Below, in pieces: positions 1,183 through 63,331 of a stretch of 64,000 nt of DNA. Position 1 is the stretch's first letter. Every line of letters begins with the position of its first letter. A program made the translations under genes and the position numbers. The notes below the pieces were generated by a model. It was given only the letters and a program-made list of their open reading frames with translations, was not told where the DNA came from and did no database searches. The DNA is from Morchella semilibera (Eukaryota; Ascomycota; Pezizomycetes; Pezizales; Morchellaceae): the NCBI GenBank assembly GCA_009192285.1, contig WBVU01000005.1, positions 1,630,731-1,694,730 on the forward strand, read 5' to 3'.

Positions 1183-2668
1183 TCACATAATGAATACTTT
1201 TCTTAATGTACTATCATCCCACTCGTCGCCAGTAGTCGGATCCCTTATCCTACCGGCCGGCAAACCTAGTTTCACCGCAAACTCTTCCAATTTCTCACGT
1301 CCGTGTATCCTGTTGTTAGGTAACACAACAGGATCCGGGTCAACTGAAGACCGGACATGGTGAGCATACGGGACACTCCTTGCCAGGTCGTTGAGCTCTG
1401 TTGAACAGATTGGACAAAGCGACGTTGTAGTGCTAGCATTATTTGGAGTTGCTATAGATGAGTGGCATGAAGGCGTCTTTAGGGCAGATAGACCTGCGGA
1501 GAGGGCGATATGAAGTAGAGGCGAGACGGAAGGCCGTATAGGCTATGATGGGTGTTTACAAATGTCGCTGCGAGGAACCCCCAGCGTTTAGATGAGTACA
1601 TATCCTACACATAATGTCAATTTTGGGACATTGCCATGTTGAATACTGTAAAAATCTACCTTATATGGCTGGCATTTTGTTGTGGGCGGAAAGGCTAGAA
1701 GGACCCCCACTTTCATTATATCGTCTAGATGTTTTTCTCCCTGGGGTGCAAGGAACTTTTTCGAATATGCTGTGGCTTCTCTATGGCGGCGGTCTCGAAC
1801 AAGCTCGATAAATTGCTGCCTCCGAAGCTCGAATTCAAGGGTACTCTGCGCTTGTCAGTTAATCCCTCGTGAAAAGGTGTGGGCTATTAGCTCCATACAT
1901 TTATCTTCTTGAGAGTAGACTTATTCTCTCCACACCATGCCAGACACTCTGTAACGCTGCCATTTCGAAGACTCGCCTCAATTTTCGAGCATTGTACAAA
2001 TACATCGACATCAACTAGATCCTAAACACCAATTAGATCTCCCGTCAGTCAAACACTCGCTATGCAGGTGTATTAATATCAAGAATAATAGTGACAAACC
2101 TGGATTCCCTTCTCCTCCGCCAACTGCCTCGCGCTATTTCCATACCCGCTCCTTAACAAGAAGTCCACAAGCAACCGATCAAGTCTTGTTCTGCTCCACC
2201 TATCATAGCTCTCATCCACTAAACTTGGGATGCTATACAGGTCCTGTAGGTGCGCGATCCTCTTCCTCGAGTGCTCGTGTAGTGTCTTCTCCTCGTCATG
2301 GAGGCTCTCCAGCTTCCTTTTGAAGCCTTGCATGCGGTTGATCATGCTATCTAATGAGGCCAGCGACTCCTCCGGAGATGCCCCGGCGATTACATCTTTG
2401 GCGGCGTTGTGTATTCCTTCCTTGAGCTCCTTCTGCTCCCGCTCAAGTAGCGCTGTGCTGTCTTGAAGTTCTTCCGGAGGAGTTCGTGGGGGAGACGGAG
2501 GAGTGGTTGGTCCTGGGGGAGCTGTATCAGTATCCCAAGGGGAAAAAAGACAAGTACATGTAGTTAAGTGCACGTGAGAAAAGCCGTGGAGTAGAGAGGG
2601 GGGGGGGGGGGGGGGCTCACAAGGAGAAGATGGTTCTCGGCATTCAGCTTGGTGGTTGACATTGACAT
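1183..2668 (-). CDS. FYV10: GID/CTLH E3 ligase RING subunit Fyv10/Gid9 (MAEA family), two frameshifts
   Basis: Catalytic-core subunit of the GID ubiquitin ligase, which degrades gluconeogenic enzymes when glucose returns. Exons: 2621-2668, 2100-2512, 1899-2021, 1660-1845, 1183-1604. Order of parts: N-terminal [16 protein letters not shown] block and coiled coil; LisH ([28 protein letters not shown]); CTLH with [24 protein letters not shown]-terminal degenerate [24 protein letters not shown]; and the family C-terminus KVFIM. Two one-base losses interrupt it. Near 2444, the frame carrying [11 protein letters not shown] must shift to reach [11 protein letters not shown]. Near 1520, GLPSR must shift to reach [16 protein letters not shown]. 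With both bases added the exons give 398 codons, normal for the family. Intron 1 carries an 18-base C tract (on the coding strand) directly after the donor. It converges on BMT5, with 247 bp between the two stop codons. Confidence 0.88.
2598..2615. repeat. 18-base G homopolymer in FYV10 intron 1
   Basis: Uninterrupted G run on the + strand, so a C run just inside the 5' end of FYV10 intron 1. Long G/C homopolymers recur in non-coding parts of this window (for example 17121, 20611, 20846, 22580, 30281, 38933, 47756). Confidence 0.95.
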
Positions 2669-3532
2669 GATGGGCAGAGTTTGAAAGACAAGCGGAGCTC
2701 TATGGGTCCACAGTGTATAGGTATGTGTGTGTGTGTGTGGAGGGGGTTTAGTTACAAACGACAAAGATGGAGAGGAAATGTGGTATGATATACATGTATT
2801 TTGCGTGCTATTGTATGTTTACATATACAAGCATGTGTGACAGTCCAAAGGTTTGAGTGGCTGCCCCTCCTCCTTTCACAGCAGCGATAAGTTGCCGCTA
2901 GTTATCCTCTGTTACATACCCCCCGGCCATCACGCACACCCACAGCTGCATTATGGCACCCGATGATGATGAAGATCCCTGCACAAATAGCAACATGAAC
3001 CCACCCCTCGTCCAACCAACCATGAAACTTCCGTGCCTGCTGCCGATCTACAGCATGGGGGAAACAAAAGCATGCAAACTGTCAATGCCCATACCCTAAT
3101 TAAACCAAGTTGGATATATGAGTGCCAAATTAGTATCAAGGCTTACTTATTCACATCTCTCATAGAATACAAAATCTCTTGACTATCATTATAGTGCATT
3201 TACCATACGCAACTGCATGGTGTCTTTGTCAATAAAATTCCAACCTTATCGCAAAACTCGCGCCTTATTTCGCCGTCGAAAAAATGACCCCGCAATCCCA
3301 AGAAAATCTTCCACAAAAAAAAAAAAAAAAAAACTATTTAGTTACAATAAAGGACATACACAAAGAAAAGGTACAATGCAAGTAACAAAAACTAACAGAA
3401 TAAATGTTCAAGCAAACCAAGATAGACGTTTAAATAAAATAAATAACTAGGAACAGAAAAGAGGGGGAGGGACGGATATAGAAAGGAAACACAATGCTTT
3501 ATAAATCTCAATCATTAGCGGTCTTATTTTAA
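2669..3532. other. Intergenic FYV10-SAC3
   Basis: Presumed FYV10 promoter and SAC3 3' flank. Holds a (GT)n microsatellite at 2724-2739, one TACATGTA palindrome at 2791 and an A tract at 3317-3335. The open frames here are short, low-complexity and match nothing I recognise. Confidence 0.7.
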
Positions 3533-6500
3533 CTACCAACGGCCCTCCACCGAGCTAGGAAAAGATGATGACTCCCTAACCCCCGCCATCTCTTTCTTCA
3601 GATCCCCCAACTGCTCAATGTTTTCATCAAACATCCCATTCACCTCACTCATCATCCTCTCCAAATCCATCAAATCATTCTTCAGTCCATCAAAGGAACT
3701 ATCACCCTTCGGAGAAACAGATCTCTTCTCAATTTTATTTTCAGGGTTGGTAATTGGAGTAGTGGTCACCAAGTATTCCTCGGCCACAGGGTTCTCTATA
3801 CCGCTTCCCAAGGTACCACCACCAGGCACCGGAAATTTATCCCAATCTAAGTGTAATCCTCTTGCTTTGATTGAAAAGTAATTTGTCTGCATACCAGCGT
3901 TTCGGATACGCTGTCTCTTACCCCTACCATCGAGGACCATAGTTTCTGCCGGGGCAGGTTTTGTAGGCTTAGGTGATCCTACGGACAGCTGTTGCTGCCT
4001 TGCACGCTTTCTTTTGGCAGAGCTCTCTGTCTCGGGTGAAGGTTTCCGTGACATCATCTCAGCAACTTTTGGGTTGACCGTTTCAAGGACCAGCTGGGAG
4101 AATTGCTTCATTACTGGAGTGAAGTTACAATCCTCGAGGTTTTCGACCAGGTGAATGTCCCGGCCAATAACCCTCTCATCAAAGGTATCTAAATTTAAGG
4201 CTTTCCGAATCTAGTGGCCGCTCTAATGTTAATATCTGTAATCACGGTCTCGAACCAATCAAATCCCATTCTGGCAACTTACAGCGGCAATACGTGCGCG
4301 ACGCCCTGGACCTGATGTCCTTCCCAGGTCCCTTCCATACGGATCCGCATCCTCAGTATCTAATGGACTTCTATAACATACTACCATAACCGCCAGTTTT
4401 GCGAATTCTGTGGCACCAGCAAGCCAACTAACTGCCTCATGCAAGTTGGTCCTGTCCCTCTTGAATCTCTCTTTATTTGAGATACTATAATCTGCGGAAC
4501 AACCAAAGATAAACCCACCAACCTCCCTCCCTTCCGCCTCTGGGTCGGTCAAATCAAATTGGACCTCAAAGTTCCTTTGTTAGACATGGCGATGCGAGGC
4601 TCGCCATTACCAATGAACTTCTCTATCCACCAATAATTTTTAACGTCAACAGAGGTATTGCTGCTTTTACACAGGAGGCGCCATCGTCGGTTCCCTTCGC
4701 TGGTTGGCCACAAGGCCTGTTGAACCTTAGGCAGAAAAATCTCCTTGAGTGGCACTGGTTGATAGGTGAGTGAAGTCATTCGTTGGACCTAGTGGAACAA
4801 GTTAGTGCCTTAATATAAGGTATGATCCACTAAACGTGTTACAAACCTCATTTATTGACCTATCGAATGCTTCATCCGGTATTTGAACAGGCCGCCACTG
4901 GACGTGAGGGGAAACTGGAGGGTTTTTCCGCCTCTCCTCCCCTCTACGCTTCAACATCAATTTCCGCGCCCTCGCTTTCCACGCATAAAATATTCTTGCC
5001 CCAGAACGACTTGTATAAAATTGCTCTGCGGAGATATCCAACGCAATTTTTCTGGCTACGAGTTTTTGGGCTTTCTCATATTCTTCTGCAGCCAACTCGC
5101 GGATGATATTGGCTTTGTCCTCTTCAACAGCGGACTGGACTACTTTTTTGGCCTCCCGTGTTACAATCTTATCAAAAATTGAGTTTGCGATCTCCCAAGC
5201 GGCGGAACGGGGTACCAGTGGCTTTGCAACCGGGACTAGGGGTGGTTGTTGAATAGACTGTGCCGAAGAGGTGGTAGGTATCAAACTAGGAGCCGTAAAG
5301 GAGAAGGGTTTGGCCAAAGATGAGTCCATGGAAGAGGCCTGAAGCCCAGGAAGCAATTCCTTGAGCGTGCCCGCCGGTTGATTCGGAGTATCTTCCTGGG
5401 ACGGTAGGTTTCCGATACGATCAAACAAACTACCACCTGTTATTTTAACGGGTTCAGGGACACTATATGCACTGTCGTCTTCATAGCCGTCATAGCCGTT
5501 AGGAGCTATTGGGACACTAAAAAAGTTTGAAGGAAAGCCCTTCTGTTCAGGACGTGAATCGAAAACCGAGCCACCACTCGTTGGAACTGCCGCGGCCGAG
5601 TCTTGCTGAGCGTTTGGTGGTTGAAAAGGGGAGAATGATGGCGTGGTAGATGGCGGGGGTGGTAAAGAAGAGTTGTTTGAAGGCTGAAAAATTCCATTAG
5701 ATCCAGGTTTAGAGGGGCCCTGTTGGAATATAGACTGAGACGTGGATGGCGCTTGACCTTGTTGAAACTCAGACTGTGAAACAATAGGTTGGAAAAATCC
5801 GCCAGGTGTCACCTTCGGAGGGGCTAGGAGGGGCTGCGTGTTTGATAGAGATTGTTGAGGAACATTGCGGAAAGGCCCCTGCTTGAAGAGTGAAGACTCC
5901 GCCTGGTTGGCTGAATTATTAGGGGCAGAGAAAATTCCAGAAGGCAATTTTTTAGCAGCTGCATCTTGAGGAGTTGGTAAACCACCTCTTGAGGTGAATC
6001 CAGAATTGGGGGCAGCGGGGGGGAACGCTGGGGATATAGCACTCCCCGGCGCGAAAACACCGTTTTGAGAAGACGCTTGGGCCAAACGAGACTGTTGTGA
6101 TGCTCCCCAAACGGGTGTTCCAGATTGGAATACTGAGGCCTGTGCAACTGGTACAGCTGCCTTCTGGAATATATTGGAAGCCTGTGCTGAGGAGTTGCTA
6201 GCTTTTTGGAAAACGTTAGGCGTTGGTTGTGACGCAGCTTTTGCAAAAATACCGGCAATAGGTTTCGATATCGTCTGCGGGAAGCCAACGCCAAATGCTG
6301 GGGCGGCTCCAGAATTTAATAGTCCAAACCCCGGTGCAGAGTTTGTAGGAGGGGCTATAGATGCATTTTGCTGACCAAAACCCGAAGAAGGGAATGTGTT
6401 TGCCTCCAGGGCCACAACAGGTTGATTTATAGATTTTGCTTGACCAGGTACAAAAGATTCCGCGGCCGGATTAAAGTTCTTATTACCACTTGCCTGTCTA

Positions 6501-8479: not shown

Positions 8480-9343
8480 ACCTGGTTACGCTTGGCCGGA
8501 CACGTGAGGCTGACCGGCGCAGATTCAGGAACCGAGAAAAAGCACTCAAGTTTTAACAGGTAAGGATAACACAAAATATTAACAAGTAGAGCAGAAGTAC
8601 ATGCGCAAAAACTGTAGCTAATCTAAGCTGTTGGGTAAATTATGAACGATGGTGGGAAGGAAATTCGAAAGTCTTTCAAAGAAATAGTATTATGTGGCAG
8701 GCCGTAGTGCCCCGAAACCTTTCTGTGAAAGAACCATGGAGACATGTTGATAAGCCAGTCTATATATCCTATATGTGTTGATGTAGTCGCAATCAACAGG
8801 AATACATGTACCTACTTCCATTGTATGTCATGTGTCTTAATGTTGTGACTGACGACGTAACGGGCTTAAAGATGCATGCCATTTAATAGACAAACATCAA
8901 CAATACATACATCTCTAGGTAAGTAGATTAATCACTAGTAATTCATAGAATTATTCTTAGAGCACCTACGTGTAAATAGTAGCATAACTCTCAGGTAATC
9001 TAATAGTGGATCACAGCATCTCACTCGCTAATGAGCCACATTGATTGATTGGTTTGTTGATTGATTTATTACCTAATGAACCACATGAGAACCCCTTGAA
9101 ATAACTGTCTCGAGACTCTTTAAACAGATATACAATGTTCAGGGTACCCGTCATATAAGACGAGAAATTAGAAGGTAAACCGGTTAAACACATTATAACC
9201 ATACCAGAAACTTTAGCCGTCCACACGCAGTTAATCATGAAAGTAAATATTTGGAAACTCCTAAAGACTTATACCGTGAATAGGGAAGGGCCGCCAAGAA
9301 CTGACAAATGTATGTATGTATATGTGGGATAAATAAATGTATC
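8480..9343. other. Intergenic SAC3-aminopeptidase P
   Basis: SAC3 upstream region and aminopeptidase P 3' flank. One TACATGTA palindrome at 8803. No gene seen. Confidence 0.7.
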
Positions 9344-12026: not shown

Positions 12027-12120
12027 CATGTACTCCGGGTGTAGGGGCAAGTCTATAGGCACCTACTACAACCACGACTGGCACTGGTCTACAGACTTAC
12101 CCCTACACCCGTAGTACATG
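12027..12120. repeat. Imperfect inverted repeat, 32-bp arms
   Basis: Arms 12027-12058 and 12089-12120 are reverse complements at 29 of 32 positions (core CGGGTGTAGGGG), with a 30-bp loop. It could be a tiny MITE or a transcribed hairpin about 125 bp upstream of the aminopeptidase P start. No clear target-site duplication. Confidence 0.75.
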
Positions 12121-12663
12121 TACATATTGTAGGGGCCCAATGAGTGCTTTTGAGACCACATGTAGGTACATGTACTTCATGTATAATACTACACACAGTT
12201 ATGACATAAATAGTTTTTTTTTTCCAGCTCCGATTCAAATGTTTATTCGATCTTGGAAAAAAGAATGGCATATTAATTCTCTTGTATGGGCTCCAGCTAA
12301 GTATGTCTTACACATGTCTGAGTGAAAAAGGATAATTAACCGCGTATGTATGTGTATGCGTGCGTGTTTCTGTTAAGTACATGTATGTCTATTCAGGCAA
12401 GTTCATGAAGATTAATCATGAATGATCACTCGTATAAATTTGTAGTGGTTTTCTGTGAAACTGTTCCGTGGGGGTGGCGCACAGATCACCGCACATATAG
12501 GCTAACCCAATTAAGACATAGCTGTGCAGTGTCACCTTTGATGAATGCCCCTCCAACAACAACAGCGCGGATGTGGCTCTTGATCCGCCATACTTTTGAC
12601 GATAATGAACTTCCGCTCTTTTCTCTGATCTTAGGTTTCCCATGACTATTTTACATTCAAGCT

Positions 12664-16072: not shown

Positions 16073-17147
16073 GCCTAAGCCTTTATCAAGCATCTCCCGA
16101 GATTCTAACATAAGGCCGGTTAGTTTAAGAGGAAAGCGAGGCACGAACCAAATCGTTAAAGAGTTTTGGCTGAGTGCAAGGGGCAGTGAGTTTGATTGTA
16201 AAGAATTCTCCTTCCTCCGTTTTCTTCACTATACAGACCTTTACTTACCTTATCTTGCTTGGCATATTTTAGACGCTTCATAGACACAATTTCATCCTGT
16301 TTATCACTACAGGATCTTATTGTGTTTGGTAATGTGAAGGCATCACCTTTGAATTCTTAGGGGTTCCTTTCCTTTTCTTTTTCTGGGCTGGGGATATCGT
16401 GTCTTGTCATCTTCTCCAATTTTATAGTATTCTTGCTTCTTTCACCCAATTACCCTTACCCTTTTATGCCTCTTCCATCTTGGGACGGGCAATTTTCATG
16501 TACAGTACATCGTAAGATGCAGTTTAAAGAGTTTGAGACGGAGCAAATATTGGGCCAATTATGAGGATACGTACATACATGTACTTGAGGTATGTTGAGA
16601 TTAGAAGGCTTTAGGCCTAGTGGATTTCATCGGCAGAATAGCTTTGGGATAATCGCCTGACTGTTCATTGATTACGGTAGCACTTTTGCACATGTTTAAC
16701 AGATTGATCATAATATTTTGCAGTTGGGATTAGTTCTAGTAGAATCCATCCAGGGATTGCGGTCGTTTAGTCTCGGTACTGGCGCTATCTGCCATTGAGG
16801 TTGGGGTAAAGCACCGCATATGCTACCGAACTGATGGAGGCAATATAAAATACATTGGAAACCAGTTTGTTTGCTTCTAGGAACCATTCATTCATCGATT
16901 CTCACTCGTCAGTACTTGTAAGTAGTATGGTGATCTAGTATAATACACAAGTTAGCCTCAATAAGCTCAAGTTGACTCGGCTCTTGGAGGCCCGAGGTTC
17001 TCAATGTTCCAGCCTTGGATGAAGGTTCGCCGCATGGGCTAGAATATTTAATATACGTACTATAGTAACTGACCTGCTTAGGCTCCGGCATCTATCTACA
17101 TGTACGTAGCAGCCACATCACCCCCCCCCCCCCCAGATAGCCCACCA
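16073..17147. other. Convergent intergenic region karyopherin-exonuclease
   Basis: 3' flanks of two convergent genes. Holds TACATGTA at 16576 and 17097 and a C homopolymer of about 14 at 17121-17134, next to the exonuclease stop. No gene seen. Confidence 0.7.
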
Positions 17148-18922: not shown

Positions 18923-19783
18923 GTACGTTAAGTTGTACGCTGTCTAAAAAGCGGGGAGAGGAGGCTAGAGGAGGCACAAATACATAGAGGCAAGGGTGCA
19001 GGAACGACTGGAAAACTGAGTAGAAGGCTATGGCGCGGTACATGTATGGCACCAATAATGCAGTGAAATAGTTCCAAAACTTGAGCTAGTCTGAACATAT
19101 ATGGAGAAGTGACATGCCCAAAAATACCCTGGAGATTGTGGTGGCCAAAGTACCCATCTAAAGATACTGTACTCATAATGCGCATATTAATATAAGACGA
19201 GTTATGCACTTAAATTACATGTAGTTATGGGCACATAATGAACAGGCTTCTATAGAGACCCCTATATTTACTACATGTTAGTACTTTCATTGCTTACCCC
19301 TTGAACACATAAGAGTATGGGGGGGGGTGTTTAATTAAAAATTCCTAAGACTAAAGGCCCATAGAAATATAATAGTGAAACCTTGTACACTACTCGGACA
19401 GATAGCCTCTTAACCGTAGGAGGAAAAGGAAGCGTTTCTTACCACACATCTTCATGATCATGGATCATGATCGGGATCAAAGGATGTCTACTTATAAGCT
19501 CTCTAAGTAACCAACCAAGCTGTACTAGCTGGATCTCCCTATAAAGATCCACTTGAGATTATGATACTACAAGTAGTTTCACATAGTCATAACAACCCAA
19601 GAATAACCGGAGCTAAAGGCACGACGACCAAGGATCTCAGGTTTGAGAACTGTTATAAGCCAACCCGTGAGGACTTACGACCGGCTCAAACATACATGTA
19701 TGGTGTCATTAATAATAATCATATAGTGGATATAAGTTGTGAAAAACCTTTTGGGGAAAACCAAAATATGATATACCGCAAAA

Positions 19784-19899
19784 ACTCGAAAAATTGGCTA
19801 TCTCCAGCCAGGATCATCTCCTTCATGATTGGTTAAAGGGCGTAGATCAGGTCTGCTTATAGTAATTTTGATCTTGTATGCATAGCCAATTTTTCGAGT
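19784..19899. repeat. 116-bp unit with perfect 18-bp terminal inverted repeats
   Basis: Arms 19784-19801 and 19882-19899 are exact reverse complements (ACTCGAAAAATTGGCTAT). This could be a small MITE or solo hairpin. No target-site duplication is evident outside the arms. Confidence 0.6.
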
Positions 19900-21327
19900 A
19901 ATGGCGCCAGTACATGTATACATGTATGTATGTACACTACTAATTCTTCTACCCCAGTTCTTTTACCCAAACCACCAGGTAAATTCTCAATTGTTTCGAT
20001 TTCTCTTTCTATCACATCTAAAAAGAAAACTACCGCTTTGAAAGTAAAATAAACTTGTATGGGTGTGGCACTAAAATGTTATTATAATGAAGTTGCTTCA
20101 AAATCCATCACTCGATTGCCAAGACACTGCTTTCCGAGGCTGAAATTTGGGTGGTTTCCACTTTCCCTAGACAATCTACATGTAAGTACTAGTACATGTA
20201 TGTACTTCCCTCAAATGTGGGTGATGCAATTTGGCTAAGCAATTTAAACAGTTGGTATTTTGGCATAAACCCGGCTAACGATCGATCATACTTGCTGCAG
20301 GTCGTTCAAAATTCTTGTCAATGACTAAGCATTCTCTAGATTAATACCCCAGGGCAATCAGAATACATGGCTTGCGTCAGGACAGTATCGAGGATCATAT
20401 AATGTTCTGGTTTTAACCCAGCTATCAGAATGCCTCAGCTATATCGACAACTACTCTCTTCTAGTGGCCCCACCCAAATAAGTCTTGATTAGGTCTAGCG
20501 TACTGCTGTTGGTGCCCAGCCCAACACGTCCTGCGGGAGCGGCCCGATCCGCATTAAAAAAAAAACGTGGTGCCTTGCCTACGCAGAAGCAACTCCCAAG
20601 TATATGTACGCCCCCCCCCCCCCGGGGCCTCGGACGATATCACAGCCCATATCTTTATGGGGTAGATTAAAGAAAGCAAGGGCTACAAGGAAAACAAAGA
20701 GAGGGGGGAGGACAGGTTGATTGGTGAAGCTTTCTACCTCCAGATCCCCCTCTTCATCTACAAAATGGAGTGACGGAAGAGGAAAGCGATAGAGACCTTT
20801 TGACTCCATCCACTCTCCTAGTGTTCTACACAGCTACTCTCCTAACCCCCCCCCCCCCTTTCGGTCTCTTAAGGGGCAAAGTAGTTAGAGAGATAGAAGG
20901 GGACTTTTAGATTTTTTCCCATTCGCGGCTTCCTACATAAGCAGTGACCTCCCCTTTTCTCAAGTACGTACAGCTACCCGCTGATAGAGATCTTCTCACC
21001 CCAACCCAACCCAATGCAATTGCACATATGTGCCGTTGCTCCCTCTCTGTTGAAGCGGCTGGTGATTCTCTTGTGTGGCTACTTTGCTCAAGTTCTATCA
21101 AGAGGATAACGTATAACCGATATAGTCTTGTGGGGATCTTACATGTCTACGCCGAACACATTAAGTACATGTAGGTATATGGCCACACTGCATAATCTAG
21201 AGTCTTGGGTGACCTAGTCTCGGGACACCTATTAGTAGAAAGCCGCTCAATAACCCTTTTATCATTGGCGTCTCCTGTCACTAAAGATACTAAGCTCGAG
21301 CCTTCACGTATGAGGAGTTGTTCTGAG

Positions 21328-21922
21328 CGAGTGATATTTCATGAGTTAGTACATTACATGGTTGTGCCAACTTCGACTACAGCGACTGCGAAGACAGTGA
21401 CACCAGAACAGATAGCTACCCTGAAAACGGGGATACATGTAGTCATCACCCCGAAAATACATGTATTATTGCTCTTTACGCTAGAGACCACCCTATTGCC
21501 CACCTTACCGATCCCCCCACCAAAGTCAACCCCGAAAATCATCCGGACCATACTCCCCTGGCGAGCAGCGATAGCCCGGTCTCCCTCTCCCCCAGTTCGT
21601 ATCATATCTGCCTTGACTGTATCTATACTTTCAAACCTTTTCGCCTCAAAATCGGCCTAAATGCATCAGCGGGTTGGAGCCCTACTATTAGGCCTAACTC
21701 AAATTTTTGAATGGTAGTTCGAGGCCCTACAGCCATGTGCCATTTTTGAACCCTAAAGCATCTCTAATTTCGGGCCCAGATCGGAGAAATTTCAAGTTGG
21801 CGTCTGCCAAAAACCTCTATTGGGCAATATATTCCTACGTCTTCATGCTTTGAGTACCATATCAAAGTGCGCATGCTTGTAAAAGTATGACGAAGCTATA
21901 ATATATTACTAGATATCACTCG
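21328..21922. repeat. Possible degenerate element bounded by inverted CGAGTGATAT motifs
   Basis: Exact 10-bp inverted ends CGAGTGATAT (21328-21337) and ATATCACTCG (21913-21922) enclose 595 bp. The motif also occurs elsewhere in the window, which fits transposon termini, but there is no flanking duplication and no coding capacity. Weak call. Confidence 0.25.
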
Positions 21923-22080: not shown

Positions 22081-22186
22081 GACAACGTGGTGGAGTGGTT
22101 AACACGTTCGCCTGCTATTGCCAGTATATACTGGTACAGTTGAGCGGATGCCTTTGGGCGCGCAAGTTCGAATCTTGTCGTTGTCG
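22081..22186 (+). tRNA. tRNA-Ser(GCT), with 25-nt intron
   Basis: Class II tRNA. Acceptor GACAACG (22081-22087) pairs fully with CGTTGTC (22179-22185); discriminator is G. D arm GTG/CAC. Anticodon stem TTCGC (22107-22111) pairs with GCGGA (22144-22148) with one G-U pair. Anticodon GCT is at 22114-22116. An intron, 22118-22142, sits at the canonical place one base 3' of the anticodon. A long variable arm (GCCTTTGGGC region) is present, and the T arm has GTTCGAATC with stem GCAAG/CTTGT. Reads AGC/AGT serine codons. Confidence 0.92.
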
Positions 22187-23754: not shown

Positions 23755-24756
23755 TGCTACGGTTTATTGGTGATGGAAGTGTTAAAAAAGCGAAACTAAC
23801 AACAAAGGGTGTTATCTTTGTGGAGGGAGAGAACTAGCGATGTTTTCGGGAGTGGTATAAATTTGGCGTTGGATTGTTATAAGAGATGAGAGGAATGATG
23901 TTACCGTTTCTGTGCGGGGCGGCGACTGGTGGGGCAACGGATTTAGAGACGCCAAGACAACCCACTTATTACTCACTCAGACTTTATCGACTGGTTCAAA
24001 CTTCGAGTCATTCTTTCACTGCATGAGTCTGGACTGCATGAGATATGACTCGGAGTGTACAAAATTTGCCGCAAATTAGCAAACAAATTTATTTCATGTC
24101 ACAAATTACCATGTAGCCTTCACACTAAAGAGATAGTCCTAGAGTCCCACTGGAGTTGGTAGTCAGTCCCATGTATGAGGCATCAAGTCAAGATTTCCTA
24201 AGCTAATATTCCAGATGGCCGACCGTAGAGCACAAAACCACGAGGTACATGTAAGAATACTGGTACAGCTTTGATACATGTTTTGATCGGCTAGTAAGTG
24301 TGATTTGCTATTAACATATAAAAGAACTGTATGTATATTAATAGGTTCGGAAAGCTACTAAGTACATATGTGTAACTACATGTAAGTACATAGAGTTTGA
24401 TTCTCTCTTCGGAAGGATTATAATTTTATTGAAACATTATTACTCTCAAACACCAATCCTAGAAGCGCTAGGATCATTTCAATAGGCTGACACAACTACA
24501 TACCTCCCAAAAGAAAATAAGTATTTGTAGATACATGTTATAGGCGCTTGACCTTATAGGTACAGGCCAAAAGGAAGACAGCACCGGTTTGAAAAACTAC
24601 TCCTATGCACTTTGAGAGACGATTGGTAGTCAAGGCCATAAAAGTATAATTATACACAAAAAGGTGATTAAACAAAAAAACGTAAACACTCCTTATCATA
24701 CCATCATACAATCCTTCACACATTATCTCTTTATCATGAAAGAGATGTCCTCAACC
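23755..24756. other. Intergenic eIF6-ABC transporter
   Basis: eIF6 promoter side and ABC transporter 3' flank. TACATGTA at 24245 and 24378. No gene seen. Confidence 0.7.
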
Positions 24757-30143: not shown

Positions 30144-31391
30144 GCCCTTCCGGCCGCGCGACCAAAGAGTAGAACTCTAGGGCCAATCGACTGGTGGGAA
30201 TTCGTTAATAAGAGACAGTTCAGTCCTCGTTCAGGTTGAAATAGGGTTTAAAGCTTAGAACTATCAGTAACACCAGGTTTGGGGGGGGGGATATGGTCAA
30301 TTGAATGGGAGAAGCTGGTGGGTGGCCTTGATAAAGGGTAAAAGGAGGATTTTGTGATAAGATGAACTTATATGCTAATCTAGATCCGGTGATACAAAAT
30401 CCCTTGGGTACACGCTGCAGCACGGAGGTGAACGCAAGCTACGCAACGAGATAACCAGTCAATCAATTAACAGGGCAAGAAGATAGAGCTGAGCAATGAC
30501 TATGTGTCCATGCAGAGTGTATGTACCTACTCTACCTACTCTATCTCTTGAAGCGAAAGTCTTTGCTGCCAGTCAGTACTACTCTAGAGAACGGAAAGTC
30601 TTTGCTCTCCCAATCGCTGACTGAGACTTCTTGTTCCAGCCCATGCATTTTAGCGGGTGACGATAGCAAGCGTTAGCGTATGCCATGATTTATTATCTCT
30701 ATGTACCCTTGCATTTATTGATTGGGTTTACCGGCAATAGATGTCACTTTTGGGGTATAAAAAGTAGGGCCGTCGTACGCGGAAGAAAAAAGCAAAATTC
30801 TAGAACAACCTGCATCTAAGGACCTGCATGCCTCAAAAAACGGTCTCGGGTTGAACTTAAAACCCCAGAGGGACCCGACCTTGATATTACATAACTCTAC
30901 TCGGGGCCAAGTATAGTATCTAAACGTTTTTGACTACAATTCAAGATTCAGTGCATAATGATCTCGGCTAACTCTGTCTTCAAGTACATGTAGGTACATA
31001 CATGTAAGTACATGTATATCCTCATGGTTTAATTTAATTCCCATGCTAGCCCTCGGCGGTTGTAAATGCCCTTTTTACGCATAAACATCGAACACGAACT
31101 CAAGCGCTTGAAGCTACATGCGATACATACATGGAATGAACGCACAGCGTGTCTCACATACGGCAATGCTACAGCATGCTACAGCATTCAGAACGATAAA
31201 GGTGCGGCTACCCTACAAATCTTGCCTATCCTATGCGACAGTTTAAGCATAAAGAAATTCAAAAGTTCAGATATCTACCAGTGTCAACAAGCCTCGCACG
31301 CATACTCTATAGCTATTTACCAATGGAAAAATTGAAAGGAATTCTTATACAGCCCAATACCAACATGCAGCTAAATGTTTTGTGGCCAGTC
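30144..31391. other. Intergenic ABC transporter-NDUFA12
   Basis: Contains three TACATGTA copies in a tight cluster near 30985-31016 and a G tract at 30281. An open frame 31066-31427 (+) has no recognisable homology and is not called. Confidence 0.65.
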
Positions 31392-36840: not shown

Positions 36841-39471
36841 ATGGTTGGGTAAAGGCTGGGTTGGTGTTTTTTTTTTACGATTTCTGGTTCTATTTCTTTT
36901 TTTTTTGTGGGACAGGTTGTTTTCCTTTTTTTCTTTCCCGGGTTAGGGTCTGAAAATAAAAAGGGAGAAAGTTGCATGGCTACCAAATAACAGAAAAGTG
37001 CCATGTTTCGAAAGCAGCATACCCGAAAGGAACTAGAAATCTAATGGCGTCCTGAACAAAATTTGGTGCTTATGTGGTTTGGTGATCTTTTTATAATTTT
37101 CTCTTTGGTGGATGTGGATTCTAGTACGGGTGGGGTTTTTCCCTCGGATCCAGAAATCCAGCAGCGGTAATCAACAGATAAGATATTAATGATATCATTC
37201 AGCGTCGGATATTTCCGCATCAATGCGTTTACGGACACCTTAAATCTATCTTCAGAATTAGACAAGGTTTAATGTATTGAATTTCCGAGCGATTTCTTGT
37301 GTATAAAGATAGCTTGGGATGTTAAGTCGTTTATTGATAGCCTGGGTGGGACAGCTCAAAGGCCGCAATAGCACCCGAAAGCAAACTTCCCTAATCAAAA
37401 AGAAAGCACAGAGTATAGTGGACCTCCTCTCTATTACTATCCACGACTAGTGATGACCACGGGACTATCCGAATTAAATAATACCGTCTACTTGACAATG
37501 ACAACATTCGAGCCAAAATGAAGCACTACCCATATACAGCTCCAGGGAAGGCTGGAAACGGTAATTTTGACCTGTAGATTGCCAAAAATTATCTAGATAG
37601 TGCATATGTGTGTTGTATTTCCCCTAACAGAGTACAAGTGAGTACCTCACTTACCCAGGCACGTGCACGTGAACTTCGTGAATACATGTATTAGCTAGCG
37701 AAATAACTTTTGTTATATAGTACATGTATTTCCGGTACCTCAACCTATGTACCTAGGGTGTCGGAAAGTGATGCACATTTGGTGGTTTCATAGCCACACG
37801 GGAACCAACCCCCACACCAGGCTATTCCAAGATAAATATGAGTGTGCAGATACTCTTCATCAAGTATATGCTTAGTGCTTAGGTATGGTAGAGAAGTTCT
37901 GTATGTATTGTGATAAAGTATTTGGGCGTTGTCTAGTCAAAATGTGCATCACTTTCCAACATCCTAGGTACATGTAGTTATGATGCTGTGTGAGCCCAAG
38001 TACTAGATGGTCGAAATCCCACACCTACATGTAGTAAGCCTAAAACCGCAAAACTCAATCTATAGTAAATTCGTGTACGACGCAGAATAACCTATCCACA
38101 TGAAAACGCATCCACTATTACGTACTTACCGAAAATTTATTGATAAACAACCAGGCAAGAGGGAATAAGTACATGTAGTCTAAAAACTATCTAGGGCCCT
38201 AGTCCAGTCCCCCCATGTATTAACAGGAATCATTAGTTCCCTAAACATATTTATAGATCGAATGGGCTCATGTTTGTTCTGCATTTTGGAGTTATGTATC
38301 AGTTCATGTGACTTTTTGGTTCCCATACTTGCTGGTAGGAACGTTAATTCGGCCCATGGTCCCTCACGGCGGGCTTGAGGATGGTGGGGGGGGGGTTATC
38401 TGTTTGGGTGGTGAGCTAGTAGTAGGGACATTGTAATCCTTGCGGACGACCGGTCCTTTTATTATCTCCCCCCTTGAAATAACTAACTGGTGACCACTTT
38501 ATCCTTAACTTTGCACCTGAAATAATGAGACATTCGGTAGGGCAGGTTGGGGGGGGGAGGTACGGCCAAGTACTTGGGAATTGGTTAGGGTTAGGTGAGG
38601 AAATTAATCTTTGTGACCATTCTCAATTACTGTGAGCGAATGTATCTATATCTTGCCGAACTTTCTATCTCCTATAAGTTTTGCGATTTTAATTTGAATT
38701 GCTAACCCCGACCCCAGATACCCACATCCATCCTTACAATTAACCCCCGGTGGTTATCACCAAAAACTAACCAGGGGATTAAAAATGCAGAAAAGTACTA
38801 TGTATACGTGTATTAGAATATCCAAGTAGGCCCTCTCCATCAACTACATGTACGTTCAGCATTCGCCGGGTATTGGCTACACACATATACATAATTGCAA
38901 GTACCGTAGTTTGGGACTTTTTTTTTTTTTTTTGGGGGGGGGGGGTATCAAAAGATTCCTTTTCCATTTTAACGACGGTACGTATCCGCGGCCTTATGAG
39001 CAATGGGGCCGGCCGTGAATCATGATATATCACTCGCAATCTACCAACAGGGGGCAACAACAGATGCAAAGAACGGAATAGGAAAGCTACATATCTGATT
39101 GAGTGTTCAATACTTACTTTTACTAACTTATCAAAATTCTTGGGACTTTGGCATTACATGGTCTGCTATCCCTACCCAACTGCACCTACATGGGCCGGGG
39201 GTTTATCTCAACCACCTCATTGGGGCATAACATATTTTGAAGATTCTCAATTCCAGTCATGATTATGTTTCCGACTGCCTTACTGCCTTGACCCAAAGAT
39301 TTAACGCCACACGTGTGAAGATACGCGAGGCCAGAAATATATAATACAGAGCCCTTGATCTAAAAAAGAAAACACAGCAAACTCCTTCCTTGATTATTGC
39401 GTCACTAAGCTCTCTCACCGTTGCCACAAAGAGCCTGATGATAAAGAAAATAAGAAGACATCGTGGATCAA
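36841..39471. other. Gene-poor block with MITE
   Basis: About 2.6 kb between convergent genes. Contains the TA-flanked MITE 37752-37968, six TACATGTA copies (37683 to 38845) and G tracts at 38384, 38550 and 38933. A 74-codon reverse frame (37041-37265) has no recognisable homology and is not called. Confidence 0.65.
37752..37968. mobile_element. MITE with about 31-bp TIRs and TA target duplication (Tc1/mariner or pogo-like)
   Basis: Ends CCTAGGGTGTCGGAAAGTGA and, inverted, CCTAGGATGTTGGAAAGTGA continue to GCACATTT on both sides with two mismatches in all. The unit of 217 bp is flanked by TA (37750-37751, 37969-37970), the duplication made by Tc1/mariner transposases. It has no coding capacity, so it is non-autonomous. 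Confidence 0.75.
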
Positions 39472-41145: not shown

Positions 41146-42015
41146 GGCGACCTTGTCTCACTGTCTAAGACTAAGACTTGCCCACGTAGGAATGGGCGTG
41201 GTGCGAATTATACAGGGGTTTACACTGTATAATAAGCTGGACCAGAAACCCTATCAGAGGCACTGCACGATCCAATCTCCCCGACTGCCAGCGCCCAAAC
41301 ACCCCATAACGCAACTGAGAACGCTATGTTCCTGACTACGGAACAATATGTACAGTAGGCTCTAAAGCACCGTGTGATATGCCCAAATCCACAAGTCTTG
41401 GCAGTTGTCGGATGAGGGACTCAAAGGTCCCCCACAGCAGTCTCATTAGGTTGGATGCTCTAAGGCGGGCTGTGGGCAGTTGAGCAGGATTGTTCGAGCT
41501 TGATTCGAACCTGGTGTTGGAAATAAAGCCCCAAGATTATTATATAGTGATTCCTGAACGGGTTTGGTTAAGACCGAGTGACAACTGGTGAGGAACAAAT
41601 TTCAGATATGCATGTATGGTTCGCAAGTTGATAGAACTCTATATACTTAGGGAAATTTCAAAGAGCTTGAAGGTCTTGACAATTCTTACGCCCTGTTTAA
41701 AAAGTTAAAGACTGTCCCCCACACACAATCTCCGAAACCCCTAACCCTAGCAGTTAAGATTTCCAGACCCAGATCTTCGGATTACATACATATAGTCCTG
41801 ACATTTTGTAATTCCTTACCCCCCAAGCGCAGAGCGCTTACATGTATCTACTGTAACACAGGAAATTTTCCCTGTAACCCCCCCAAAAAGCGGCTCTGCG
41901 TAGATAAAAAAATCTCTCTCCTCCCCCCCCCTCACTCCCTCACCCCCCGCTTCTACATCCCTACGCTCGAAAGCTACTATCCTTTACCTATCAATTGACT
42001 CTCTACGAAACCGTA
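41146..42015. other. Divergent intergenic region ORC2/ArgJ
   Basis: About 870 bp with one TACATGTA (41838) and a C9 tract near 41925. A TGACTC half-match to the Gcn4/CpcA site lies just upstream of the ArgJ ATG (about 41997) but lacks the final A, so I do not call it. A B-box-like GGTTCGAATC on the reverse strand near 41515 has no tRNA around it. Confidence 0.6.
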
Positions 42016-43605: not shown

Positions 43606-44283
43606 ATTAGGTAGAGGGCTTGGTAAGGGTAAAGGTGGAGGTCACGTGGCAGAGCTATATGTTGTTAATGATCACCGAGAACGATTAATGAAAGTTGAAA
43701 GTGATACCCGTGATGAACATAAGCTTATTCTTGTCCGCCTGTGCCTGGGTAGATTTCGAATTGAATCGAGCAGAAATTAAAAGAAGGAAAAAGACAAAGA
43801 CTGGAAGTAGATGGTGAGGTGCTCTAGTAGAGGTATATCTGTCCAATCAACCATATCATCCACACACTGATTCAGGCCACATCTGCTTGCTGTGGGGGAA
43901 ACATAAGAATATGTGTTGTTCTGGAACTACATGTAGGTAATGCCGGTCCCTGTAGGGAGGGAATCTTATTTCGGTTGTGAATGAGCGACTGAGTGAGGCG
44001 GCGTCGTGCGGATGGGGATGACAAGGGGCTAGCGGGTTGAGCCCAGCCAGAGAGATGTGGCCTCAACTCTCTTCCTCCAACTAAAAAAACCCCCGAACTC
44101 TCCTGAACGTCTTCCTTTCTTTCTTTCTCCCAGAACCATCAACCATCTCTCAACCAACCCTCCTCCCAACGGCACTCTCTTAAAGCGTGCTTGCCTTCCA
44201 TAGCGAGGAGACTCTCTTTCTCTTCGTTCATTACCCATCTTTCCTTTGAATTTTCTATAGGCTTCTTCTAATTCACCACAATC
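43606..44283. other. Intergenic ArgJ-SEC61
   Basis: ArgJ 3' flank and SEC61 promoter. One TACATGTA at 43929; pyrimidine-rich stretch (CTTTCTTTCTTTCTCCC) about 44115-44131, 150 bp upstream of the ATG. No gene seen. Confidence 0.65.
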
Positions 44284-46979: not shown

Positions 46980-47283
46980 TAGTGGTGGGCACGAGACGAG
47001 GCGAGACGAGACGAGACTTGGAGAAGTCTCGTCTTTTCTTGCATTATTTGGATTAAGCCTTGGAAATCTCGAGACAATGGTCTAGTCTCGTCAAAGTCTC
47101 GGGACTTTTGGTCATGTGACCTAGTTTCTGGAGAACCTATATAATCATGAAAGTTAATGTAAATTGAAGGTTGGGGAGGAGTTTGAACCGTGGCTGGGAG
47201 TATGTTCAAGTGTCCAAATAGTGGCTGGGGAGCATATTTAGGTGTCCAAAAAGTCTCGAGACTAAGTCTCGTGCCCATCACTA
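46980..47283. mobile_element. hAT-superfamily MITE with perfect 8-bp target-site duplication
   Basis: Termini TAGTGGTGGGCACGAGAC and, inverted, TAGTGATGGGCACGAGAC match the hAT consensus YAGNGNTGGGCA. The 304-bp unit is flanked on both sides by CTCGGGGC (46972-46979 and 47284-47291), the 8-bp duplication made by hAT transposases. Inside are many GAGAC/GTCTC copies near both ends, resembling subterminal transposase-binding repeats. An imperfect duplicated unit of about 32 bp (about 47191-47255) contains GTGTCCAAA. It has no coding capacity, so it is non-autonomous. The intact duplication suggests recent insertion. Confidence 0.93.
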
Positions 47284-53566: not shown

Positions 53567-54959
53567 TGACGGTGGGTATGCGGGGGGTTTTATTTCGGGT
53601 TTTTTTTGTGAATCCCTTTGGTTGGAGGAGGACTCGCGCACGATGAGACGATCGCGATATCAGAGACGCATTACGAGGACAGATAGACTGTTACACTACG
53701 ATGAGTCGGTGACAGTTGGCTCGTTGCTGGCTGGCTCACCGGGTGAAAGAAAGGGGAAGAAAAAAAGAAAAAGAGGCATCCCTCCTCCTCCTCCTTCCTC
53801 TCCTCCTCCCTCCTCCCCTCCCTCGCTTCACCGCCACCATCCACAGACACACCCATCCATCTATCCCCTGCGACGAATAGAAGCTATGCACGTACTCTAC
53901 TGGGCAGAAGGAACTTCTACATACATTCTCTGTGTGCTCCACTGTAAACTAGAGGCGTCCCATCGTGATAGAAGGACAGGCAGGGAAAAAGCTACACACA
54001 TAGACTAGTTCCTCTGTTCTACATGTAGTCCATGTCGTCCCTTCTTCTCCCAGCTGCACAAGCTGTGCCTGCTGCCGGACCACATGTATGCAAGCCAGTT
54101 GATCCCTGCAAGTACCTGCCAAGGCGCGTCGTCGCAGAACATTCGAAACCACACGCTAGTGCTAAGCAGCTAAGGCTGTTGGGTGAACAACAGCATTAGA
54201 TGCGATTAGTAGTAATTCGCAGGGGAAAAAATAAATTAGAAGTAAGGCCATGTGCGCGGTAGAGATTTGACAGTTTGTCAATACCCGATGTTCCGGCAGA
54301 TCGAGATTAGCGATGGGGAAGATAGAGTACATAGGTATAATATCGGTATTGTAAATACCTACATACTACATACTGGGGGGGGAATGATACCCACGACCGG
54401 GAACTGAATCAGGAACGAACGAGCGAAACGTTGCGGAAAATATTAATAGGATTCAGATGGGACAGACAGCTCATAATGACGTAAAATAAACCAGTCGAGG
54501 TGCGAGGAATAGGTAACTACAAGAGCTACATGTAATTATTGCTTTGCTTTACTGTAGGTACGGTCTAGATAGCGAGAGGGCTTCAAATGCCACTTGGAAA
54601 AAGGTTTTATGGTTGCCCCCCCAGATTATGTAGTTAATGCTTGTTGCTTGCGCTACTTGATACACCATAAACTGAATGCCGATTCAGCCAGACCTTTTTT
54701 TTTTTATAATACCCGTCCTGCCCGCCCCCTAGGGTACCATGATTAGATTATACCTTCCCTCGGCCAGTAAAAAAAAAAAAATCCAGCAAACAACTAAAAG
54801 TAAGCCAAAGGGGAAAAAGGTTGTAAAAAAAAAAAAAAAAACTAAAACTAAAGCTAAAGCTAGGAAAACAAGCTCCACCAGTCCAACAAGCACATCAAGG
54901 TTAAAAGGAGGAAAAAAGAAAGACAGGAGACAAGAAAAGACACAAGAAAAGTTCCCTAG
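53567..54959. other. Intergenic HG-rich gene-CWC21
   Basis: Contains a long CT-rich (polypyrimidine) tract about 53780-53830, TACATGTA at 54021 and 54531, a G8 tract at about 54375, and A-rich tracts at 54770 and 54826. A Lys-rich forward frame 54739-54963 is driven by those A tracts and is not called. Confidence 0.65.
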
Positions 54960-55670: not shown

Positions 55671-57067
55671 TTTTTTCCTTTCTTTCCTTCTTGCTTTGCT
55701 GGTTTATGGGTGTTTGGCGGAGGTTCCCGTGGTACTCTGGTGGAGATGACAGGGGGGGATTGGATTCGTGTGGGCATTGGGTTGTTACCCGGGGATCATG
55801 TTATGTCACTCGGGGCTGAGTGGGCGGCATAGAGGAGCCTGTATCTTTTGATAGCCTGCATATCACTCGCCACCACTGAATAAAGTAAACCTGTAAGAGT
55901 AACCAACAAAAGAGTTCGGTACCCAGGATTCCCGCATGGTCACCCACTGCAGTACTAACTGGGCGATACGATGGTTGGGTATGGCAGAGCGGACGGGATG
56001 CCCCATTTTCATCGTTCTATGACCGAACACGGCAGGTTAGTGGTTTTAGGGTTAATTATTGTAGGATTTTGATTAACGGGAATCACAATCCCCGGATAGA
56101 GCGGGATTTGGGGCAGCAGTTTAAATACATGTACTTATTTATGCCGTCTCCGCTCGGTATGTATCTTAAGGATTACGCCGCCCCCATTAAAAGGCCGTTT
56201 TGGCTCCGGCCGGATCAGTGATCACAGCTACATGTACATGTAGTATCAGAAATTAGGCAGGGCCAGTTACTTAATATGTACTAGAGCCGATACAATGCAA
56301 AAGCACACCAATGTCCTGGATACCTACAAAACTACACGCACACCACACCCGCAGCTGGCTCCATGGCGCAGCGAATCTCTATACGCTAGGCCTCTAGAGC
56401 TTACTTAGTAAAACTTAGAAGGATAAAAGGACGCCGGTTGACCTCGAGCCGTACCAGCCGCATGGTAAGATGAAACTGCAGCGGCATCATATATATCTAA
56501 TGCCTCCTGTCGTAGAAATATAACTACCCACAAGTGTGTTTGCTTCAGTTAAAATCATATCTGGTTAGGAAGCGTTGGAAAATGTTGCGCGCTTAATTTC
56601 TTGGTCTCCAAGTATCACTCGGCTTGGCAAATGATGCACCCCGGGCAAATGATGCCCCCAGGGTCCTCAAAGTGAATTTTACAGCTGCTGGCAACCATAC
56701 CCAAATTTGGGAATAATTTATATATAATTGCATCAGGCAGAGCTATATAATAAATAGTATATGAAAACAAAAATGAAAAGGTTGACTGGGTCTAGGTTTG
56801 ATGGTGGCCGCGGCATTAGAGTGTTGAGCTCGATCATTGCACCACTCTGAGGACCCCCGGGGTACTCTCAACGTTTCTAGAAAGTACGCTGCAACACAAC
56901 ATAGACACCCACTGGGACCATGATAAAAGACTGTCATCCCCGGTCGTCTCTATAAAGCCGCTCTGACAAAAGAAATACGAACGCAAAAAATAACTAAAAC
57001 GCTATGTCAAAACCGTCCGTGATTAACACTACATGGATAGGCAAGCAGACACCACCCAAAGCGTTAT
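55671..57067. other. Intergenic CWC21-ALE1 with 5S rRNA
   Basis: Apart from the 5S gene, holds TACATGTA at 56127 and an overlapping pair near 56231, and TATCACTCG at 55861 and 56613. No protein gene seen. Confidence 0.65.
55912..56030 (-). rRNA. 5S ribosomal RNA
   Basis: 119 nt. The 5' end GTGTTCGGT (at 56030) pairs with the 3' end ACCGAAC (near 55915), forming helix I. Conserved internal elements are present: CATCCCGTCCGCTCTGCC (loop A/B region), AGTTAGTACTGCAGTGGGTG (A box/loop E side) and GACCATGCGGGAATCCTGGGT (C box to helix IV). A T4 run follows the 3' end on the transcribed strand, a Pol III terminator. Single dispersed 5S genes are normal in filamentous ascomycetes. Confidence 0.93.
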
Positions 57068-59225: not shown

Positions 59226-60326
59226 TGCGATAAGTTGTGTAGGGAGAAGGAGGGTACAAAATTTCTCAGGACATGGAAATGGGGAGAGTTCAAAAATGTT
59301 GGGACAGCTGAATCAGGGCAGGATGTGTCCAGTGCTACATACTAAAAACCCGCTACGTATGACGGAAGGTTGAGCTGCAGCCACCTTGCATATCATGGGA
59401 TTATTATGTCAGCTGGCCTGCGACACGTGCGTTTCATGTGGGGTCACTCGTGGTTCCAACCGCCACGCTTTAAACTATGAGTGACTGCTGTAGCCAATAT
59501 CAACCTCACCTGGCACCGCTCCAAAGCCTCTTTATTATGTGGCTCCTGGGCATTTTTCATCAGTCTGTATCAGGGCTCTACCCTAGGGACTTCTAAGATA
59601 GGATGTAGTTAGGAGAACTGGTATTATCTAACCCTGCGCGGGGCGGAGGCAAGCCTTGGTTACAATATTCCAGGGGGTTTCTAGAAGCAATCGGTTAACG
59701 AGATTCCTAAGACTCGTAAAGTCGAAGACAACATCCATAGACCCCCGGAATCACTACAGATCATATTTTCACATCTACAAATCGTTGAAACACATGTACG
59801 GGACGAGTTTCAGCGAGCCCTCAAAAAGGCAAAGAGGCTCTATGTACTTATTAGTGATAGATTGGGACCCTAGCTCTGCATTTACAAAAATACCGAGAAG
59901 GACACGCTATATGAACAAAACTCCTACAATAGTTCTTTTTGGCAAACAAAAAGACTTCCTCTTTTTTCTTTTTTTGGTGATATGAACTTTTAAGTGGTGC
60001 GGGGTTGAAACAATAGCATACTAAAGGAGAAAAAAGTTTTAAAACCCAGGAATAAGATAAATCCCCTTACGCTCCACTATACCGCTCTTTATTCAGATAC
60101 AAGATAAGTACGTAATAGCACAAAGACAAAAAAACGGCGAAAAGCGAAAGAAAGATATCGAATCCCCCGACAAGCATTCCCCGCAAAATACTCCGCTGTT
60201 TTGCTTCTTCGCCACATACCTCTCCCTACTCTCCACCCACACCCTTCAGCCACCGGTTCTTTTATTACTACGCCAACTTCAAAATCTTTGATCTTGCACG
60301 TAGACTAGCCAAATCGATTATTAAGT
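59226..60326. other. Intergenic ALE1-actin
   Basis: ALE1 promoter side and actin 3' flank. Forward frame 59656-59985 shows no homology. Nothing else recognised. Confidence 0.6.
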
Positions 60327-62091
<1,765 letters not shown>

Positions 62092-63331
62092 TGTTATTGA
62101 TGAAAAAGGTCTATGAGATTAGAAAGTTTAAGGAATTCGTGAATTACGTGGGTTGATAGTTGAAGTTGTAGAACTGAGATGAAGTAGCAGGGGGAACTGG
62201 CTTCTCCGGGATGGGGGACGATGGATGGCTTTTGTAGATGGGAGATAGATGGGTGTTCGGGAAGAGAGAAGAGGAAAAGGGGAGAGGAGGAGGAGAGAAA
62301 GGGAGGCCCGCACGCATTTGCCCACGCACACACCCACCACCATCCACGATATGCCCTGTCTCCGCCCTTCTTCCGCCCCCAACACGCCAACGCCATACTA
62401 TGGAGGCTTGGCAAGCAGTTGTATTAGGGTTTCTTGCTTCACAAGGAAGTCGAGTTTCCTTCTTTGTCATCGATGATGAGGACAAAGCGCTGATGCGGAG
62501 ATCTTACTGGGCAATATACCTACATGTACTTATTCGCATGGATTTTAGAGGTCCTATTTTTATTTCATCTACGGAAAACAATCTTGGTGCTGTAAAAACT
62601 CTTGATACTGAATATGTTTCGCCTCTAAGTGACACTTCAATGGGTTCACGGAATGTAAGCTTTCACCTCCACCGTACACGCGGTCAGCCTCGGCACCTTG
62701 GCATATTTCGTTCCTGGTGTAGTAGTCTGTGTGGTAGGTACACTGATGATGGATCTGTGCTTCTAGAGAGTAAATTGAGTACCTCTAAAGACCTCGTCAG
62801 TACCGTGCGCGGCTCGGCCGCGTTTCCCAGAGCGTTTACTATGACTGCTTAGTCGCTGTGAGCAGAGAATGAATCATCTTGCTGGAGCTGACGACAAGAA
62901 CGAGCGGGGCTTTCGTGTACTGAATATCTTCCCGGCCACTTTCTTGGTATATAGCTGGTTTGAGGCTGAAAACTTGATGGCGGGGTAAACGCGGGCATGG
63001 TGGGGTTTCGACAACTGTTTCGCCAGTGCAACAAAAGTCAAGCTTCATAAAAAATTGTTTGAGAAGAGCTAAAGCATCACAATACATGTATGTATCTAAA
63101 TATGGCTTTAAAAGCAAAATTTGATAATTTAAAACATGAACTACTCTTTGGCCATCTTTATCGAGGTAGAATCTCGGAGTGTAGTCCCGAAGTGTCTTCT
63201 TGTTTCCAGCTATTTCGGCGTCGCACAAAAATCTTTATTCTATTAAACGCTCAGAAAAAGTAAGGCCTACGACAACAACAACAATCAGCAAAGCTCCCAA
63301 AACACAAACCACCCCTTCTCTATAGACCATC
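62092..63331. other. Divergent intergenic region actin/FES1
   Basis: Holds a GA-rich tract (62240-62310, CT-rich on the actin strand, likely in the actin promoter or leader) and TACATGTA at 62521 and 63084. Open frames 62238-62852 (+) and 62839-63228 (-) resemble no family I know and have no splice or codon support. Confidence 0.6.

Follow-up and report, generated by a model that had tools for sequence, protein, structure and literature searches.

A 64,000-nucleotide stretch of the genome of the morel Morchella semilibera (assembly GCA_009192285.1, contig WBVU01000005.1, positions 1,630,731 to 1,694,730; here called the window) raises the question of how one palindromic octamer, TACATGTA, came to be scattered through its noncoding DNA. 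An initial annotation had counted about 38 copies by eye where about one is expected, and had proposed a site for an abundant DNA-binding protein, a replication or chromatin element, or the signature of short mobile hairpins. We consider it probable that the octamer is the excision footprint of TA-inserting transposons of the Tc1/mariner type with CA...TG termini, probably for the most part small nonautonomous miniature inverted-repeat transposable elements (MITEs).

In the mechanism that we infer, insertion would duplicate the target TA, and upon leaving, the transposase would cut two bases inside each 5' end, the flanks keeping TA-CA and TG-TA. End joining that kept both overhangs would then give TA-CA-TG-TA, and loss of one overhang would give TACATA or TATGTA. 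Such scars would gather in untranscribed DNA, which tolerates them or favors insertion; each would offer a pair of TAs in a suitable target context, on which later elements would land again and build clusters. Passages of three papers bear on these steps: taCATGta is given, after Eide and Anderson 1988, as a rare Tc1 footprint in Caenorhabditis elegans (PMC3520976), Tc1/mariner excision is described as leaving 3' overhangs of 2 to 3 nt (PMC3878927), and the excision chemistry is further backed in PMC2170065. Genome-wide accumulation of such scars, to about 20,000 identical copies, was not found in the literature searched. Tc1 footprints are known, and it is their scale here that is best read as unusual.

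Abundance and genomic location of the octamer

Exact counting gave 38 copies in the window, the number reached by eye, compared with a mean of 0.80 and a maximum of 3 in 100 dinucleotide-preserving shuffles. Of the coordinates first assigned, those given as 24378, 37722, 41838, 43929, 54021, and 56231 were off by 1 to 2 bases. A genome-wide count, which the initial annotation had named as a check, also lay far from chance: the 56.76-Mb assembly (56,756,124 nt in 23 sequences, the longest of 7,341,407) holds 22,206 copies, compared with 3,723 of the reversed-palindrome control ATGTACAT and a chance level of about 700, obtained by scaling the window shuffle mean. These totals are somewhat inflated, as duplicated contigs are included. 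Three near-identical contig pairs are apparently assembly duplicates, namely C9/C10 (99.95% identity over 100 kb; 2 mismatches over 99,900 aligned bases) and, judged by matching places only, C12/C13 and C21/C22; given this duplication, roughly 20,000 copies is a fair round figure. A comparison of C9 with C10 as haplotypes was uninformative, the contigs being assembly duplicates.

The position of copies relative to genes was assessed in a 214-kb sample, the window plus a further 150 kb taken from C9 and C1. Gene models were those of a self-trained gene finder, with no public annotation, and their gene ends and untranslated regions (UTRs) are approximate. When the 256 palindromic octamers were ranked in intergenic DNA, TACATGTA deviated most, with 117 copies observed and 2.8 expected. 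Its one-mismatch variants were 1.1- to 3.1-fold above expectation, an excess compatible with neutral decay of scars. The initial annotation had placed nearly all window copies between genes, one in an intron and none in exons, and the gene models agree (37 intergenic, 1 intronic, 0 exonic). In the whole sample, 117 of 120 copies were intergenic, 1 was intronic, and 2 were exonic, one of the latter at the extreme end of its gene model. The 2 copies in 93 kb of exons compare with 0.4 to 0.6 expected from Markov models; with a count near chance, the word is not shunned in coding sequence, and only the remaining DNA carries the excess.

Within noncoding DNA the copies avoid sequence that is probably transcribed. 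UTR-like zones held 7 sites in 24.0 kb, compared with 103 in 71.8 kb elsewhere (P = 4e-7), and introns held 1 site in 14.7 kb. An RNA-level signal, such as one for 3' UTRs or poly(A) addition, was rejected because of this depletion after stops, before starts, and in introns. Once the 300 bp that follow stops and the 100 bp that precede starts were trimmed, density was 1.1 per kb between convergent genes and 1.4 to 1.5 per kb between tandem or divergent genes. Sites range from about 100 bp to several kilobases from start codons and occur on both the 5' and 3' sides of genes. No sharp promoter position was found for 110 sites relative to predicted gene ends, bins ranging from 0.2 to 2.4 per kb out to 3 kb from start codons.

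Insertions at TA and candidate parent elements

Empty sites were available for comparison in MITE1, a repeated TA-flanked MITE with a window copy at 37750-37970. In the genome search for this family, the best 40 of 104 candidates were scored, with at least 82 matching pieces listed; 5 rows from duplicate contigs were left out, which gave an alignment of 35 copies, the window copy and 34 others. An intact interior TACATGTA is present in 3 of the 35, at two positions, in each case as an exact 6-bp insertion where the majority of the remaining copies have just the bare TA. One site is common to L050 and L064 (GATAAAG-TA-TTTGGG), and L062 carries the insertion at the other (CATCAAG-TA-TATGC). Both positions have T at +3 to either side, in keeping with the scars at large. 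Two further 6-bp insertions detected by eye, CACATGCA in L050 and TACATGTC in L061, look like decayed scars.

The family also carries shorter relatives of the octamer. Among 29 MITE1 insertions of 2 to 40 bp, 19 are 4 or 6 bp long, and TA is duplicated in 13, any other dinucleotide being duplicated in at most 5. The thirteen comprise TACATGTA (three), TACATA (two), TATATA (two), and one each of TATGTA, TATA, TAAGTA, TAAATA, TACGTTA, and TACTTAGATCTA; the forms expected upon loss of one overhang, TACATA and TATGTA, are those of L048, L055, and L059. In intergenic DNA, these two words were observed 174 times (157 with scars masked), compared with 89 expected. Divergence from the consensus was slightly greater in the 11 copies listed with 4- or 6-bp insertions than in the remaining 24 (P = 0.04), among which L043 (5 bp) and L049 (10 bp) were counted despite their TA-duplicating insertions. 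The signature sought for an excision footprint, insertion relative to an empty site with the TA duplicated, is thus present in MITE1. The earlier suggestion of short mobile hairpins came close, since exact insertions at TA are found; the palindromes themselves are not mobile hairpins.

The inserted CA and TG are also the terminal bases of TA-flanked elements in this genome. One Tc1-like element, at the locus L065, has an open frame of 366 amino acids with matches to DDE_3 (E = 3e-15) and HTH_Tnp_Tc3_2 (E = 1e-12), and its ends lie between TAs, TA-CAGCGGTAGG...CCTACCGCTG-TA (TA-CAGCGG...CCGCTG-TA). A second copy, on C9, shares these ends and lies in different flanks (GTATG-TA-CCTAC), which fixes the element boundaries. 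Genome-wide, the Tc1-type end pattern TACAGNGG...AAAAGTNTTG, with up to 2 mismatches, gave 77 + 74 matches, compared with 12 + 21 for the reversed control. A copy of TACATGTA also occurs within this element itself, at L065:415 between the inverted repeat and the transposase frame; the second copy of the element matches that 210-base stretch at equal length (98%) and presumably shares the octamer.

Scars and CAG ends have a target context in common. With both sides pooled, the flanks of TACATGTA favor T at +3 (0.65), A at +4 (0.49), and C or T at +5 (0.65) and avoid A at +1 (0.11), most of the information lying within 5 bases of each side; the AG/GT flanks described initially captured this signal only in part. 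It remains on the 170 sides of isolated sites, those having no other site within 40 bp. Flanks of CAG ends were read from 68 distinct ends among 100 matches listed, and within this set T stands at +3 in 49 of 68. Isolated scars have the dinucleotide TA at +3/+4 on 64 of 170 sides (Fisher test, 1e-18) and the listed CAG ends in 28 of 68 (4e-10), compared with 1,716 of 15,168 background sides; for all scars, the figure is 87 of 234 sides. If a TA two bases off is preferred, pairs of sites at a gap of exactly 2 bp are expected, and 606 of the 2,294 pairs with gaps of 0 to 24 bp have this gap, in agreement with the clustering reported at the outset.

When the sequences collected were scanned for inverted repeats that might mark a CA-ended parent, three CA-starting pairs emerged, of which two were MITE1 copies with TACATGTA at each edge and one was a motif overlap. 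The element L088 (G000:C5:43231-43522) is a CAG-ended MITE that holds a nested TA-flanked MITE of about 128 bp, CTCGCAAATTC...GCGAG; a search with the whole of L088 gave 315 first-look candidates, and most listed matches cover the nested part. Two heptamer pairs are also in excess in the intergenic DNA of the 214-kb sample, TACTCTA/TAGAGTA (48 versus about 19 expected) and TACAGTA/TACTGTA (34 versus about 16), which could be 3-nt footprints left by CTC- and CAG-ended elements, respectively.

Weighing of the footprint reading and its alternatives

Several observations weigh against an origin by transposon excision. Insertion is documented directly in a single repeat family, at two intact positions or, counting the decayed scars, at four, and the scar shared by L050 and L064, which differ at 24 of 185 aligned bases, may be inherited or recurrent. 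Among the TA-duplicating insertions, TATA and both TATATA could be products of slippage, TAAATA could be a tandem duplication, and the TACATA of L055 requires an extra C-to-T change from the consensus. By eye, no interior insertion of the TACATGTA type was seen in a second family, MITE2 (22 copies: 2 from sequences already analyzed and 20 listed genome-search matches). Likewise, no TA-type insertion was seen by eye in three 640-bp repeats of C9. TACATA and TATGTA, with scars masked, share the +3T/+4A context weakly. The ratio of scars to recognizable CA-ended elements is very high, and positions +1/+2 of scars (not A; T or G) are unlike those of CAG ends (C, 0.88; A, 0.71); given this mismatch, the CAG families, which are of the right type, need not be the parents. 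TACATA and TATGTA are the common Tc1 footprints of C. elegans, and the footprints there resemble the morel scars in the TA duplication, the CA and TG terminal bases, and these companion forms. The 4-nt form that keeps both overhangs is, however, rare in C. elegans according to the passage of PMC3520976 concerned, compared with about 20,000 copies in the morel. We nevertheless regard the footprint origin as probable: most of the roughly 20,000 copies would have arisen by excision, and the parents would be the CA-ended families now present or their lost kin.

The leading alternative, that TACATGTA is a selected binding site of an abundant homodimeric regulator, such as a TALE/IRX-type homeodomain protein or a general promoter factor, appears unlikely. 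The site is a perfect palindrome, and the favored 10-bp spacing (the 606 pairs above) would suit proteins stacked on one helix face. In the available passages of two papers on Phytophthora, motif-1 lies upstream of 12,070 genes and TACATGTA is given as the preferred IRX site (PMC3520976), and a motif M93 is described in P. infestans (PMC3597505). However, wherever the ancestral state is visible in the morel, the octamer is an exact 6-bp insertion at TA accompanied by TACATA/TATGTA, an origin unlike that of a site built by point mutation, and there is no sharp position relative to start codons, density between convergent genes being similar to that elsewhere. An exon-wise search (E ≤ 0.001) gave a single KN homeodomain match (PF05920), with the helix WFINARRRR, and homeodomains split by introns could escape such a search. 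IRX homeodomains have alanine at position 50. By this rule, the helix would not be of the IRX type, and an IRX/TALE homeodomain site was rejected as the reason for the abundance. The binding-protein proposal of the initial annotation thus fares poorly for the sites as a whole; individual sites may differ, and individual scars could be bound or co-opted by a regulator. Two other leads were dropped: the text available for the MoISW2 palindromes of Magnaporthe (PMC11481914) contains no word beginning CATG, and in the part of PMC3445587 concerned the motif appears only as a primer.

A variant of the scar idea invokes different chemistry, in which a parent starting with CATG would leave self-complementary 4-nt CATG overhangs that reanneal to TACATGTA each time. 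This would explain the stereotyped 4-nt form, and two of the 35 MITE1 copies, L036 and L037, read TA-CATGTACCC...GGGTACATG-TA and would pass as CATG-ended. Because most copies lack one or both of the outer TACATGs, we take each of these two to be a MITE1 that landed within a scar or between scars. Beyond these copies and the motif overlap in L031, no CATG-ended element came out of the inverted-repeat scan, the Tc1-like ends found start with CAG, and the TACATA/TATGTA companions better fit 2-nt CA overhangs; we therefore give the variant little credence. Least credible of all, and highly improbable, is a palindrome made by mutation or repeat slippage or having a chromatin or replication function with no link to transposons: the sites do cluster in probably untranscribed DNA, but slippage does not make ...AAGTACATGTATTT... 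from ...AAGTATTT..., other palindromes are far less enriched, the flanks share a TA-centered preference, and the spread over both gene sides and the insertion origin likewise fail to support a replication or chromatin role, although individual sites may differ.

Excision footprints may also serve as landing sites. Each excision would swap one TA for two, set in the favored surroundings ATG-TA and TA-CAT and frequently with a further TA at a distance of two bases, and transposons would thereby build their own landing pads. Among the matches listed, 9 of 68 CAG ends stand directly after TACATG, in TACATG-TA, where 117 scars and about 7,800 intergenic TAs lead one to expect about 1. TACATGTA occurs 13 times at the edges of MITE1, on 11 of the 35 copies. 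In the window, the octamer starts at the right TA of the TA-flanked inverted repeats 12031-12116 and 37750-37970, and none stands there at 46980-47283. These counts suggest that old scars are reused, and those for CAG ends and MITE1 edges are confounded as evidence of reuse by a family preference for ATG-TA. We tentatively raise the possibility, to which the 606 pairs at gap 2 also speak, that the scar is self-reinforcing, the positive feedback of Tc1-type transposition and both-overhang end joining yielding the most deviating intergenic palindromic octamer, and that the same process may explain the "regulatory" TACATGTA motif of Phytophthora.

Sites in the window, related systems, and meaning

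Copies in the window were placed by exact matching. The sole copy in a predicted intron (2555..2562) is followed by those at 2791..2798 and 8803..8810. A MITE-like inverted repeat at 12031..12116, TA-CTCCGGGTGTAGGGG...CCCCTACACCCGTAG-TA, has as its right TA the first TA of the copy at 12115..12122, beyond which lie 12167..12174 and 12378..12385. The copy at 16576..16583 is located between convergent predicted genes; further copies at 17097..17104, 19039..19046, 19216..19223, and 19693..19700 precede a MITE-like inverted-repeat stretch (19784-19899) and two adjacent copies (19911 and 19919) at 19911..19926. Copies at 20177..20184, 20193..20200, 21166..21173, 21434..21441, and 21458..21465 are separated from those at 24246..24253 and 24377..24384 by an Rfam tRNA match of 106 bp (22081-22186, plus strand), probably with an intron and not reported by ARAGORN. 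Three copies (30985, 30999, and 31009) make up 30985..31016, the last two being 10 bp apart (gap 2), the favored spacing.

The MITE1 copy at 37750..37970, TA-CCTAGGGTGTCGGAAAGTGATGCAC...GTGCATCACTTTCCAACATCCTAGG-TA, belongs to the family in which other copies carry the TA-to-TACATGTA insertions. It is preceded by octamers at 37683..37690 and 37721..37728, has one at its right edge (37969..37976), and is followed by others at 38026..38033, 38170..38177, and 38845..38852. Copies at 41839..41846 and 43928..43935 lie before the TA-flanked MITE-like inverted-repeat stretch 46980-47283, and those at 54020..54027 and 54527..54534 lie after it. Three copies fall within about 215 bp upstream of a 5S rRNA gene (Rfam; 55911-56030, minus strand), one at 56126..56133 and an overlapping pair, TACATGTACATGTA (56229 and 56235), at 56229..56242, as would result if the TA of an old scar were hit again. 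The remaining copies are at 62521..62528 and 63083..63090. Runs of G/C are also strongly overrepresented at many places in the window, GGGGGGGG occurring 61 times on both strands, compared with 6 expected.

Beyond C. elegans, the footprints of Sleeping Beauty and mariner elements, C(A/T)GTA and others, are comparable as TA-flanked end remnants after end joining; in the passages of PMC3878927 available, Sleeping Beauty remnants are of 3 nt, in contrast to the 2 + 2 nt that the morel scars would contain. Motif-1/M93 of Phytophthora is, in the parts of PMC3520976 and PMC3597505 concerned, the same palindromic octamer and highly abundant upstream of genes, but belongs to an oomycete and is read as a transcription factor site; the authors of PMC3520976 there weighed a Tc1 footprint for motif-1 and did not expect it. 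The cyanobacterial HIP1 (GCGATCGC) is likewise one palindromic octamer that occurs very often throughout the genome and, unlike the morel octamer, has another sequence, occurs in other organisms, and is tied to DNA methyltransferases (PMC4390886). A high genome-wide frequency of one palindromic octamer is equally what we find for TACATGTA. To our knowledge, no insertion origin is known for HIP1.

If the footprint origin is correct, an apparently regulatory palindrome would be a countable fossil record of about 20,000 cut-and-paste excisions in one fungal genome and would provide a natural readout of end joining at transposon breaks in this fungus. Such scars are suggested to make up a large part of the small insertions in neutral DNA, as in MITE1, where 13 of 29 duplicate TA. 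The case also urges caution against reading abundant palindromes, those of Phytophthora included, as transcription factor motifs before TA insertion has been tested.

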